A stretch of DNA of 63,227 bases from Chloroflexota bacterium (GTDB lineage Bacteria; Chloroflexota; UBA11872): the NCBI GenBank assembly GCA_028873795.1, contig JAPPNP010000003.1, positions 1 to 63,227 of the forward strand, in the 5' to 3' direction. Positions 20,371-37,247 of this stretch are shown here, one piece after another. Below the pieces are notes generated by a model. That model saw only the letters and a list, made by a program, of their open reading frames with translations, ran no database searches and was not told the origin of the DNA. Within the stretch, counting starts at the first letter, position 1; each line of letters starts with the position of its first letter. Made by a program: the position numbers and the translations under genes.

Positions 20371-20723
20371 ATGACTCTCCCACGCGCGGCGAGGTGTGGC
20401 TGGTTCGCCTGCCGCGCGCTGTCGGGGCCGAGCTGCAACGCGACCGTCCGGTCGTCGTGATCGGGTCGCCGGCATTCGACGTAGCCCCAATCCGGATCAT
20501 CGTGCCGTTGACAACTTGGTGACCGGAGTTTGCGGGTCGAATCAACAAGCTGCGAATCCCAGCACGTGACCGAAACGGCCTGGACGCAGATTCCGCCGCC
20601 GACTTCCTGCAAGTTCGCAGCGTGTCGACCGAGCGGTTCATCGAGCGGATCGGTGCGCTGGACGCCGAGCAGGTCGAGGAGATCGTGGCCGGCGTGGTGA
20701 TCGCTATCGACTATCCGGGCTGA
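20371..20723 (+). pseudogene. MazF-type endoribonuclease toxin, frameshifted and interrupted
   Basis: Pieces of a MazF/PemK toxin lie in order. The main frame reads RGEVWLVRLPRA, then RPVVVIGSPAFD and IRIIVPLTTW, then hits an in-frame TGA at 20520-20522. It continues as PEFAGRINKLRIPARDRNGL, SAADFLQVRSVSTERF and EEIVAGVVIAIDYPG to the stop at 20723. The ATG at 20371 (MTLPR) is out of frame with the rest by two bases; deleting one CG from CGCGCG restores it. Two independent lesions point to a dead toxin beside its putative antitoxin. Confidence 0.82.
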
Positions 20724-23305: not shown

Positions 23306-23740
23306 GTGGACGAGGACGGCCAGGGACCAGTTGCGGCGGCTGTCAACGGCGGGCATATGGACGAAATCGTCACCGGCACGGCGGCGCTGCTTGCGCGACG
23401 GCACCGGCGGCCGCTCCTGTTGCTGAACGTGATCGAGGTCGGCCATCAGCGACCGCTGGAGACCTCGGACGAACAGGCGGTGGTGCGGGCCGAAGCCATC
23501 CTGGCGGCGGCCCAGAAGCACGTGGGCGATCGACGCGTGAAAGTGGAAACCGAGGTATGCCAGGCGCGCGCGGCTTCTACCGCCATCATCGCGGCGGCGC
23601 TGCGTCACGACGCCGCGTCGATCGTGGTCGGCGCGCACCGCTTCCTGGGACAGCACGAGTGCGACTTGGGATTCACCGCGACGCACGTGCTGCGCCAAAG
23701 TCCCGTCCCGGTCACCGTGTGCTACGACCCGATCCGCTGA
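23306..23740 (+). CDS. UspA-like universal stress protein
   Basis: The 144-aa product is a single Usp domain. The C-terminal half has the nucleotide-site pattern IVVGAHRFLGQHECDLGFTA, a G-x2-G-like loop in which the usual GxxGxGS motif is altered, then VLRQSPVPVTVC. The canonical Gly-rich loop is therefore not intact, and ATP binding is doubtful. It starts at a GTG 15 bp after recA. Function is unknown beyond the family's stress association. Confidence 0.75.
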   Translation: MDEDGQGPVAAAVNGGHMDEIVTGTAALLARRHRRPLLLLNVIEVGHQRPLETSDEQAVVRAEAILAAAQKHVGDRRVKVETEVCQARAASTAIIAAALRHDAASIVVGAHRFLGQHECDLGFTATHVLRQSPVPVTVCYDPIR

Positions 23741-33728: not shown

Positions 33729-33797
33729 CCGGTCCGCGTTGTGGGCGAGGGCGGCGGCCCGTACGATCGCAGCAACAACATTCGTGGGAGACGTGTG

Positions 33798-34265
33798 ATG
33801 TCAGAAACAGCGACTTTGAAGGTGGGCGACGAGGCCCCGGACTTCGAGCTTCCGACCGCGCCGAGAGACGCGGAGCCATTCAGGCTGAGCGACCATCGCG
33901 GGTCGACGGTGGTGATCAACTTCGTGCCGGCGGCGTTCTCGCCGGTATGCAGCGACCAGCTTCCGATCATCGAGGACAAGCTGAACGGGCTCGCGGGGAC
34001 GGTGACGGTCGCGATCTCGACCGACAACACCTGGTCGTTGAAGGCCTGGGCCGAGCAGTCGGGCGTGAGCTATCCGGTGCTGAGCGACTTCAATCCGCTC
34101 GGGGCAACTGCCAGCGCCTACGGGGTGCTGATCGAGGATATGAACATCGCCAACCGCGTGGTCGTGGTGGTCGACGGGGACGGCAAGGTCGCGCACATCG
34201 AAACCGCTCCCGAGGTGGTGAAACTGCCCGACTACGACCCAGTGATGGCGTGCCTTTCGGGCTGA
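33798..34265 (+). CDS. Peroxiredoxin (AhpC/TSA family, BCP-like)
   Basis: This 155-aa protein reduces peroxides with a peroxidatic Cys 51, in the motif FVPAAFSPVCSDQLP. The N-terminus KVGDEAPDFELPT is typical. No second Cys lies at the usual near position; a Cys near the C-terminus (MACLSG) is the only other one, so it may be an atypical 2-Cys or 1-Cys enzyme. The ATG at 33798 has GGGAG upstream. Confidence 0.92.
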   Translation: MSETATLKVGDEAPDFELPTAPRDAEPFRLSDHRGSTVVINFVPAAFSPVCSDQLPIIEDKLNGLAGTVTVAISTDNTWSLKAWAEQSGVSYPVLSDFNPLGATASAYGVLIEDMNIANRVVVVVDGDGKVAHIETAPEVVKLPDYDPVMACLSG

Positions 34266-34426: not shown

Positions 34427-35182
34427 GTGAGGTTTCCGAATCCGGTCTTGGCCACGCTGCGCCGAGGCGAAGTGTCCATTGGCTCCTGGCTCAACCTGGC
34501 GTCGCCGCTGGCCGCCGAGGTGATGGCGGTGGGCGGCTGCGAGTGGCTGGTGATCGACGCCGAGCATGCGCCTTGGGACCTGGGGATGATCACGGAAGGG
34601 CTGCGGGCCATCGAGTCTCAGGGGTGCGTGCCGCTGGTGCGCCCCTGGACCAACGATCCGGCCTGCTTCGGGCAGATCCTGGACGCCGGCGCCATGGGGC
34701 TGGTGGTCCCGCACGTGAGCACGGTCGAGCAGGCCGAGGCCATTGCCGAGGCGGTGCGCTATCCGCCCCGCGGGCACCGCTCGTCCGGAACGTCGCGCGC
34801 CACCATCGACCGCGCCTGGACCGCGCAGGCCAACGACAACCTGATCATCTGCCCCCAGATCGAAGACCTGGAGGGCGTTGCCAACACTCAGGCGATCATG
34901 GAGGTCGACGGCATGGACGTGGCCTACATCGGGCCGTCCGACCTGGCGCTGTCCATGGGGCTCACCAGCGCCGACATGTTCACCAACGCGGATCACGCGG
35001 ACGCGATCGCCAGAATCCTGGCGGGCGCGCAGGCCGCCGGAAAGCCTGCCGGCCTACCGGCGCCGAACGTGGACCGAGCGCGCGAGCTGATTGCGCAGGG
35101 GTTCACGATGATCGACTATTCGAGCGACTACCGCATATTGCAAGCCGCGCTGGCTGAGCAACTTGCGGCGGTGAAAGCCTGA
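34427..35182 (+). CDS. HpcH/HpaI family aldolase
   Basis: This metal-dependent class II pyruvate-type aldolase cleaves or forms 2-keto-4-hydroxy acids. The 251-aa product has the active-site parts IDAEHAPWDLG, VPLVRPW, GAMGLVVPHV and QIEDLEGVAN, then DVAYIGPSDLALSMGL. The GTG start at 34427 has GGAGGAC at a good distance. It overlaps the start of the malate-dehydrogenase-like gene (TGATG). Together they could handle a hydroxy/keto acid pathway, but the substrate is unknown. Confidence 0.92.
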   Translation: MRFPNPVLATLRRGEVSIGSWLNLASPLAAEVMAVGGCEWLVIDAEHAPWDLGMITEGLRAIESQGCVPLVRPWTNDPACFGQILDAGAMGLVVPHVSTVEQAEAIAEAVRYPPRGHRSSGTSRATIDRAWTAQANDNLIICPQIEDLEGVANTQAIMEVDGMDVAYIGPSDLALSMGLTSADMFTNADHADAIARILAGAQAAGKPAGLPAPNVDRARELIAQGFTMIDYSSDYRILQAALAEQLAAVKA

Positions 35183-36222
35183 TGGGCGCGGCGGGCGGCG
35201 TGAGCTATCTGACGTCCAACAAGGTCGCCGTGATGGGCGCGGCGGGCGCCGTGGGCTCGAACCTGGTCCAGGCGCTGCTGTCCACCGGCACGGCCAACAC
35301 CGTCGCCATGTACGACCCGTTCGGGCCCGGCCTGGAGGGCGCGGCGGAAGAGATCTACCACTGCGCCTTTCCCGGCGCCGACGTGACCTGGACGACGGAC
35401 GCGGGCGAGGCGCTGAACGGCGCGGCCTTTGTGCTCAGCTCCGGCGGCGCGCCGCGCCGCGAGGGCATGACGCGCGAGGACCTGCTCCGCGGCAACGCGG
35501 AGATCGCGGCACAGCTGGGACGCGACATCAACAGCCACGCGCCCGAAGCCAAGCTGGTGGTGATCGTGTTCAACCCGGCCGACGTCACCGGGCTGGTGAC
35601 GCTGGTGCACTCGGGACTGCCGCCGCAGCGCGTGACCACGCTGGCGGCCCTTGACAGCACGCGCTTGCAGACGCGCCTGGCGCAGCATTTCGGCGTGGCG
35701 CAGCACCTGGTGGACGGCTGCCGCACTTTTGGCGGGCATGGCCAGGAGATGGCGCTCTACAAGGGTGCGATTCAGATCGACGGGGTGCCACTCAACGACA
35801 TCGTGAACGGCGGCGCCCTCGCCAACGGCGTGGGGTTGGACGCCGACGGCTGGCAGGCGATCCGCGAGCACGTGCTGGGCGGCGGGGCGCGCGTGATCAA
35901 GCTGCGGGGGCGCTCGTCGTTCCAGTCGCCGGCGCACCTCACGGCGATGATGGTGCGGGCGGCCTGCGGCGGCGAGCCGTTCGAGTGGCCCTGCGGCGCC
36001 TTCGTGACCGGCGAGCCATATACCAACGTCATGATGGCCATGCCGACGACGCTCGGTCCCGGCGGGGTCGCCTGGCGGCTGCCGGAAGGCGACGCGGACG
36101 AGCGGGCCGAGCTGGACGCGGCCTACGCACACCTGCAGCATCTGCGCGACGAGACGATCGGCATGGGCCTGATCCCGGCCGTCGCCGATTGGGGCTCGGT
36201 GAACCCGCACCTGGGGGGCTGA
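35182..36222 (+). CDS. Malate/lactate dehydrogenase-like oxidoreductase
   Basis: The 346-aa product has the NAD-binding motif VAVMGAAGAVGSNLVQALL, the VIVFNPADVTGLV segment and LDSTRLQTRLA, all typical of the LDH/MDH superfamily. The catalytic His lies in TFGGHGQEMALY, where classic enzymes have GEHGD: the Glu and Asp are replaced. The Arg in LDSTR is kept. The substrate may differ from malate. The ATG overlaps the aldolase stop, so the two are translationally coupled. Confidence 0.88.
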   Translation: MGAAGGVSYLTSNKVAVMGAAGAVGSNLVQALLSTGTANTVAMYDPFGPGLEGAAEEIYHCAFPGADVTWTTDAGEALNGAAFVLSSGGAPRREGMTREDLLRGNAEIAAQLGRDINSHAPEAKLVVIVFNPADVTGLVTLVHSGLPPQRVTTLAALDSTRLQTRLAQHFGVAQHLVDGCRTFGGHGQEMALYKGAIQIDGVPLNDIVNGGALANGVGLDADGWQAIREHVLGGGARVIKLRGRSSFQSPAHLTAMMVRAACGGEPFEWPCGAFVTGEPYTNVMMAMPTTLGPGGVAWRLPEGDADERAELDAAYAHLQHLRDETIGMGLIPAVADWGSVNPHLGG

Positions 36223-36229
36223 CGCGGGG

Positions 36230-36688
36230 TCAGCCGTAGGTGCGCATCAACTCTTCGGGCGTGAGGCGGCCGGCGTTGGTGGCCGAGTAGACGGCCGCCT
36301 CGACGCGGCCGTCGGCGTCCAGCACGAAGGCGGTGGCCTGGAAGGCGCGGCGGCGCTCGAAGCGGTAGGCGCCCACCGCATCGAGGGCGTCGGGATAGGC
36401 CAGCTCGCCCACCAGCGGGAACTCGAGCCCCAGTCGCTCGGTGAGCGCCGCGATGTCCTCGCGCGAGTCGACGGAGAGGCCCACGACGTCGACGCCGATC
36501 GCGTCAAGGGTGTCGAGCAACCAGTTGTAGCCGGCCAACTGCCGGCGACAGTGCGATCACCAGTGGCCGCGGTAAAACAGCAGCGCCGTGCGCCGATCCC
36601 CGAGGTCGTCGGGCACGCGGAACGGCGTGCCGTCGCCCAGCACACCCTCCAGCGCCGGAAACGCATCGCCGAGGTTGAGTCGTGCCAT
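36230..36688 (-). CDS. Probable selenoprotein: redoxin with UxxC motif (UGA = Sec44)
   Basis: The reading frame from ATG 36688 (behind AAGGAG) encodes MARLNLGDAFPALEGVLG and reaches LLFYRGHW at residues 36-43. Next is TGA (36559-36557), then SHCRRQLAGY. In redoxins this position is the peroxidatic Cys of a WCxxC motif, so the codon probably means selenocysteine (UxxC). The frame continues to the stop at 36230, total 152 aa with conserved VVGLSVDS and ERLGLEFPLV. A hairpin with the SECIS layout follows the TGA. The alternative is a stop that leaves a 43-aa remnant. Confidence 0.8.
36530..36546 (-). promoter_or_regulatory. Candidate bacterial SECIS hairpin
   Basis: On the minus strand, GCCGGC-AGTTG-GCCGGC is a perfect 6-bp stem with a 5-base loop. 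It begins ten bases after the TGA at 36559-36557, so the loop starts 19 bases from the U of TGA. A G is the second loop base, followed by U. These distances and the G near the start of the loop fit the published bacterial SECIS consensus. Confidence 0.7.
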
Positions 36689-36776
36689 GTCTATGCTCTC
36701 CTTTCGTTCGCGACAGTATGACCGACGACCGCGGCGCGACCTCGAACCTAGAGGCTTTGTCCGCTAGGAGCCTCCA

Positions 36777-36809
36777 CCGTTCGTGGTGAGCCCGTCGAAC
36801 CATGAACGG
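36777..36809. repeat. CCGTTCGTGGTGAG...CCATGAACGG palindrome
   Basis: A 33-bp imperfect palindrome with arms CCGTTCGTGG and CCATGAACGG lies in the divergent gap between the selenoprotein and glutaredoxin-like genes. It is of the REP-like type, different from the other repeats in the window. Confidence 0.6.
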
Positions 36810-36899
36810 ATTCCCCGCCATTACCGACCGCGGCCCCGATTTGACACAATTGGGAGACGACCTTCCCGGTCAGCCGGGATCTCCCAAGGACAAAACTCC

Positions 36900-37247
36900 A
36901 TGGCAACGCAGTCCACCCCTGAGATCGTGGCGTATCTGAAGCCGGTTTGCGGCTGGAGCGCCGGCGTCCGCGCCGTCCTCGACAAGTACCACCTCGGCTA
37001 CGAGGACAAGGACATCATCAACAGCCCGATGAACTACCAGGAGATGGTGATCAAGAGCGGACAGCCGCTGTCACCGTGCGTGGTGGTTGACGGCCGCATG
37101 CTGGCCGACGTCAGCGGCGAAGAGGTCGAGGCCTGGCTGGCGGACAAGGGCTACATCGCCAAGAACAACTCGCCCACGCCGGTCCCCATCGACCGCGCCT
37201 GCGCCGACGAGGTCCACGCGGCGAACGTCTCGTTCGAGGACCTGTAG
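36900..37247 (+). CDS. Glutaredoxin-like monothiol protein
   Basis: The 115-aa product has a thioredoxin-fold start EIVAYLKPVCGWSAGVRAVL with Cys 17 followed by Gly-Trp-Ser, so it is monothiol (CGWS). GQPLSPCVVVDG contains the cis-Pro and another Cys. A glutaredoxin-like redox or iron-sulfur role is likely. The ATG at 36900 follows CCAAGGAC. It is divergent from the selenoprotein redoxin. Confidence 0.8.
   Translation: MATQSTPEIVAYLKPVCGWSAGVRAVLDKYHLGYEDKDIINSPMNYQEMVIKSGQPLSPCVVVDGRMLADVSGEEVEAWLADKGYIAKNNSPTPVPIDRACADEVHAANVSFEDL

Follow-up and report, generated by a model that had tools for sequence, protein, structure and literature searches.

The minus-strand redoxin gene described here lies in a 63,227-nucleotide stretch of a Chloroflexota genome (the whole stretch analysed, referred to below as the window). 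It is best explained as the gene of a selenoprotein whose product would act as a selenocysteine (Sec)-dependent, peroxiredoxin-like (Prx-like) thiol:disulfide oxidoreductase, and we put the probability of this reading as a whole at about 0.9. Judged from the sequence comparisons below, the UGA at codon 44 almost certainly encodes Sec. The result adds a well-supported selenoprotein from an uncultured Chloroflexota lineage, with a gene that is prone to truncation or splitting by standard annotation.

The frame starts at ATG 36688 and proceeds through 43 codons to ...LLFYRGHW, where it meets TGA 36559-36557, the only in-frame UGA ahead of the terminal stop. SHCRRQLAGY... follows, for 108 codons up to the terminal TGA at 36232-36230. 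A preliminary description of this DNA had read the minus strand as FYRGHW-TGA-SHCRRQLAGY with 108 further codons of redoxin sequence. Our reading of the frame agreed with it, and a single Pfam match, AhpC-TSA (PF00578; residues 7-131, 59.5 bits, E 4e-16), covers both sides of the UGA. No NCBIfam model matched the redoxin above its cut-off. The gene and its surroundings are summarized in Table 1.

Table 1. Features of the selenoprotein locus and related genes in the window
Feature	Position	Strand	Basis
Prx-like redoxin gene (AhpC/TSA fold), 152 residues	36230..36688	(-)	Frame reading, Pfam, AlphaFold2, PDB matches
UGA codon 44, putative Sec codon; opens the U-S-H-C motif, partner C47	36557..36559	(-)	Conservation in relatives
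Hairpin of bacterial SECIS type; AGUUG loop on a 6-bp stem, GCCGGC/GCCGGC	36530..36546	(-)	Pairing conservation, covariation, bSECIS model
Shine-Dalgarno-like AAAGGAG, 9 nt 5' of the ATG	36698..36704	(-)	Direct sequence reading
Glutaredoxin-like protein, CGWS motif, likely start ATG 36900; divergent neighbour	36783..37247	(+)	PF00462, 35.3 bits
Lactate/malate dehydrogenase family protein; convergent neighbour	35182..36222	(+)	Profile match, conserved neighbourhood
Canonical peroxiredoxin, Cys form, PAAFSPVC; contrast to the UxxC protein	33741..34265	(+)	PF00578, 99.2 bits

When the profile was aligned to solved peroxiredoxins, C47 fell in the column of the peroxidatic Cys, and U44 in that of the Thr/Ser in PxxxT/SxxC. 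The preliminary description had taken residue 44 for the peroxidatic Cys, and this assignment was wrong. On alignment to 2cx3, the motif Pro corresponds to R40 and the catalytic Arg to A118; the protein lacks the combination of PxxxT/SxxC, with its peroxidatic Cys, and catalytic Arg that marks a true peroxiredoxin. The same profile also matches the CxxC oxidoreductases of ResA type (3c71). The AlphaFold2 model (mean pLDDT 93.5, pTM 0.89) starts the first active-site helix at residue 45, and the closest solved folds are those of Bcp/Prx proteins, with PDB matches 3hjp and 3drn. Taken together, the alignment, the model and the fold matches point to a peroxiredoxin fold with a thioredoxin-like site, in which the aligned residue 44 takes the leading, nucleophilic place in a CxxC motif of thioredoxin type, here UxxC. 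The motif, U44-S-H-C47, lies where the first helix beyond the central strand begins. The protein is thereby a clear example of a peroxiredoxin fold that has Sec at the position used by thioredoxins.

In the mechanism that we propose, the selenolate of U44 would attack an oxidised substrate, which would be a disulfide or possibly a peroxide. U44 would then form a selenylsulfide with C47, to be reduced by thioredoxin, glutaredoxin or a low-molecular-weight thiol. A role as a thiol:disulfide oxidoreductase and not as a true peroxidase is thus what the active-site residues suggest, and we consider it fairly probable. The protein could instead be a Sec peroxidase, in which U44 reduces hydroperoxides and C47 resolves; this we regard as rather unlikely. 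Sec is a good peroxide nucleophile, peroxidase action via the first residue of a CxxC motif is chemically possible, and both the fold and the best PDB matches are those of the Bcp/Prx proteins. However, U44 stands on the Thr/Ser column, the Pro and Arg of the peroxiredoxin site are replaced as described above, and the known Sec peroxiredoxins carry TxxU (PMC1088965).

The assembly that contains the window comprises 3.18 Mb in 89 contigs and is 96.6% complete. The preliminary description had held that the Sec reading would fall if selA, selB, selC (tRNA-Sec) and selD were missing from the genome, and all four were found: selA with 424 bits, selB with 296 bits and with its winged-helix domains present, selD with 376 bits, and a tRNA-Sec with the anticodon TCA (UCA in RNA) with 71 bits. 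The genome has, in other words, the SelA, SelB, SelD and tRNA-Sec expected of an organism that makes selenoproteins. The catalytic motif encoded by selD (locus L022 on contig C75, gene from 1477) reads GAGUACKLSP, its U standing for an in-frame UGA, and SelD is likely a selenoprotein itself. Since selA was found in each of the family's 19 genomes, contamination of the bin does not explain the Sec machinery. An Rfam scan of the window detected two ordinary tRNAs and nothing else.

Homologues were searched in 151 genomes, and the close set consisted of 18 genes besides the redoxin described here, from 17 genomes in two genera. All 18 contain one in-frame TGA, at identities of 97-61%, and in the 17 that were read base by base (the second copy in genome G003 was outside this reading) the TGA is at the identical codon. 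The ends of these genes vary among TGA, TAA and TAG, whereas codon 44 is invariably TGA. In the distant homologues codon 44 is mostly a Cys codon (TGC or TGT), with Cys at this column in Thermomicrobiales, Ktedonobacteria, Actinoallomurus and others; a gene from Rhodospirillaceae (L034) has TGA, and its genome (G151) has tRNA-Sec. Another residue or a gap at position 44, which the preliminary description had named as evidence against Sec, was seen in none of the aligned homologues, where UGA or Cys was found throughout. A conserved in-frame UGA with Cys homologues, as expected for a bacterial selenoprotein, is therefore present. Within the genus, the coding parts that flank the UGA both had dN no higher than 0.045, with dS 0.17-0.49, and the changes were mostly at third positions; purifying selection acts before and after this codon. 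The nearest public relatives are Chloroflexi MAGs, and no related genes were found in phages.

The conservation of the UGA already refutes the idea that it is a nonsense mutation or a sequencing error in a pseudogene, the chance of which is negligible. Nonsense UGAs do exist in the window, as in a PemK/MazF-like gene whose UGA is shared by no relative, but that of the redoxin recurs in each of the 18 other close genes of the family, which come from independent genomes, within a coding sequence under purifying selection on both sides and in conserved synteny. A changed code, in which UGA would stand for an ordinary amino acid such as Trp, is scarcely credible. The reading frame does continue past the UGA, as such a code would have it, but the redoxin's own terminator is UGA where relatives have TAA or TAG at the corresponding stop, the homologues have Cys and not Trp, and the tRNA-Sec, SelA, SelB and SelD are all present. 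Two short genes, a 43-codon peptide and a frame from TTG 36538, are just as improbable: the list of open reading frames does hold a mechanical 102-aa ORF from this TTG inside the redoxin gene, and standard annotation, which likely truncates, splits or misses the gene, probably shows such a split, but a single AhpC/TSA domain spans the UGA, Cys homologues run uninterrupted through the site, and none of the homologues examined was split there by TAA or TAG.

Downstream of codon 44, the hairpin GCCGGC-AGTTG-GCCGGC starts 10 nt past the TGA, and its loop starts 16 nt past the A of the UGA, or 19 nt from the U. The preliminary description had reported a GCCGGC stem with an AGUUG loop, 10 bases after the TGA and with the loop 19 bases from the UGA, as a fit to the bacterial SECIS rules; this hairpin was located at 36546-36530, and the RNA fold that had been suggested as a check was run. 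The bSECIS model specifies an apical loop of 3-9 nt whose first or second base is G, a stem of 4-16 bp, a distance of 16-37 nt from the UGA and a minimum free energy (MFE) of -7.5 kcal/mol or lower (PMC13188914). The AGUUG loop, the 6-bp stem, the distance of 16 nt and the energy of -16.5 kcal/mol all lie within these limits. Of the TGAs or random positions in the window, about 1% are followed by six uninterrupted Watson-Crick pairs closing a 5-base loop that lies within range and has G as its first or second base; when the loop could span 3-14 bases the rate was about 8% of positions, and with G-U pairs allowed it was about 34%. The folding z-score of the hairpin was -1.4 to -1.6. Because the chance rates are so high and the folding z-score is small, the hairpin in a single sequence is weak evidence, and we rejected it as a stand-alone proof of Sec.

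What goes beyond chance is the conservation of the hairpin jointly with the UGA. Each of the 18 sequences read retains the hairpin, and 100% of the pair cells hold, as compared with at most 57% pairing in a control in which the stem partners were slid. Two pairs covary, C-G to G-C and G-C to A-U/G-U, on the basis of 7 distinct sequences with few events, and 11 of 500 shuffles matched the score. In one relative (L050), the minimum free energy prediction favours a competing fold. Third positions are variable at 7/42 in codons 38-58 versus 121/262 elsewhere (Fisher p 3e-4), and silent sites under the hairpin are thus depleted in variation. In the Rhodospirillaceae gene, inspection by eye found an AGUUG loop at equal distance with six possible pairs, two G-U pairs included, and a minimum-energy fold that differs. 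The window sequence also shows a lower stem, UGU/ACA, which was rejected as a conserved element, as relatives in the alignment are without it. From the machinery and the RNA, SelB with Sec-tRNA(UCA) would bind the hairpin 3' of codon 44, and Sec would be inserted. SECIS elements of bacteria frequently work only in their own host.

The CGWS glutaredoxin-like gene stands beside the selenoprotein gene in 5 of 5 relatives examined, in both genera, and its product is a possible redox partner of the selenoprotein. On the other side, 7 bp separate the end of the lactate/malate dehydrogenase family gene from the stop of the selenoprotein gene, and this neighbourhood is also kept in both genera. One could speculate that, in this Chloroflexota family, a Prx scaffold now serves as a dedicated disulfide or selenylsulfide reductase based on Sec, with the divergent CGWS glutaredoxin as its partner, a two-gene selenoredoxin/glutaredoxin module undescribed so far; we hold this to be unlikely.

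The source genome contains three more AhpC/TSA genes in which an in-frame UGA forms part of a W-U-x-x-C motif. Two of them (L075 and L077, contig C76) form a tandem pair, each with the UGA in FYRAFW-U-x-x-C and with UGA-bearing counterparts in the genus, and the third (L078, position 1615 of contig C75) is an AhpC/TSA-family gene with the UGA in VW-U-LSC. The three products are likely further selenoproteins. With Sec used in four or more proteins of AhpC/TSA fold, and in SelD besides, selenium is likely routine in the redox chemistry of this organism.

Two other stop codons in the window were considered as readthrough candidates and rejected. The TGA at 20520 is a lone in-frame codon in the PemK/MazF-like toxin gene (20376-20720, plus strand), of which relatives have uninterrupted copies, and it is most likely a nonsense mutation in a pseudogene rather than a Sec codon. 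The site at 23738 is an ordinary stop, which separates one gene from a ribose-phosphate pyrophosphokinase gene.

In a tree of 29 sequences, four changes of the Sec/Cys label are needed, and at least three of them are forced by well-supported branches. The idea that Sec arose only once across the wider family was therefore rejected, and the tree implies that Sec and Cys were interchanged repeatedly or that Sec was lost repeatedly, with no direction given. Genomes with the Cys form often retain tRNA-Sec. A related branch, FYRGDW-U-x-Y-C, occurs in other Chloroflexota (L064, L066 and L068), its UGA followed by a similar sequence, AGUUG or AGCUC; the genome of L066 (G096, 82% complete) gave no tRNA-Sec above the cut-off.

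Among known systems, the thiol-disulfide oxidoreductases of ResA/StoA type have CxxC at the same place and were found both by profile (3c71) and by fold (4nmu). These are Cys proteins and are exported or membrane-tethered, whereas the redoxin carries Sec and has no leader before the domain. Sec peroxiredoxins (PF00578/COG1225, TxxU) share its fold and Pfam family; unlike them, the redoxin has Sec at the T and Cys at the U of this motif, and the Pro and Arg of peroxiredoxins are missing. The cd02970 Peroxiredoxin-like selenoproteins (AhpC/TSA family protein) also have Sec at the first motif position (PMC13188914), as UxxS and not UxxC, a likeness that is drawn from the description of the motif. 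We found no literature on selenoproteins of this Chloroflexota group. The closest counterpart is the class of Prx-like thiol:disulfide oxidoreductase selenoproteins (PF00578, UxxC/UxxU; e.g., WP_010940744.1), known from the Sargasso Sea and from earlier genomes. The preliminary description was right to call UxxC Prx-like selenoproteins an established class (PMC1088965, PMC9312934, PMC13188914), and the distinction between UxxC in Prx-like proteins and TxxU in Sec peroxiredoxins was drawn in PMC1088965; reviews list this oxidoreductase class as predicted. The redoxin resembles its members in the AhpC/TSA domain, UxxC replacing TxxU, a SECIS element directly downstream of the UGA, and Cys homologues; the likeness to WP_010940744.1 is one of domain, motif and description, not of alignment. 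The class and its mechanism are already known, and the gain lies in annotation and distribution. With its PF00578 domain and UxxC motif, the redoxin is assigned on these two features to the catalogued class, within which it differs from the listed members as a distinct FYRGHWUSHCRRQL subfamily of a Chloroflexota lineage.
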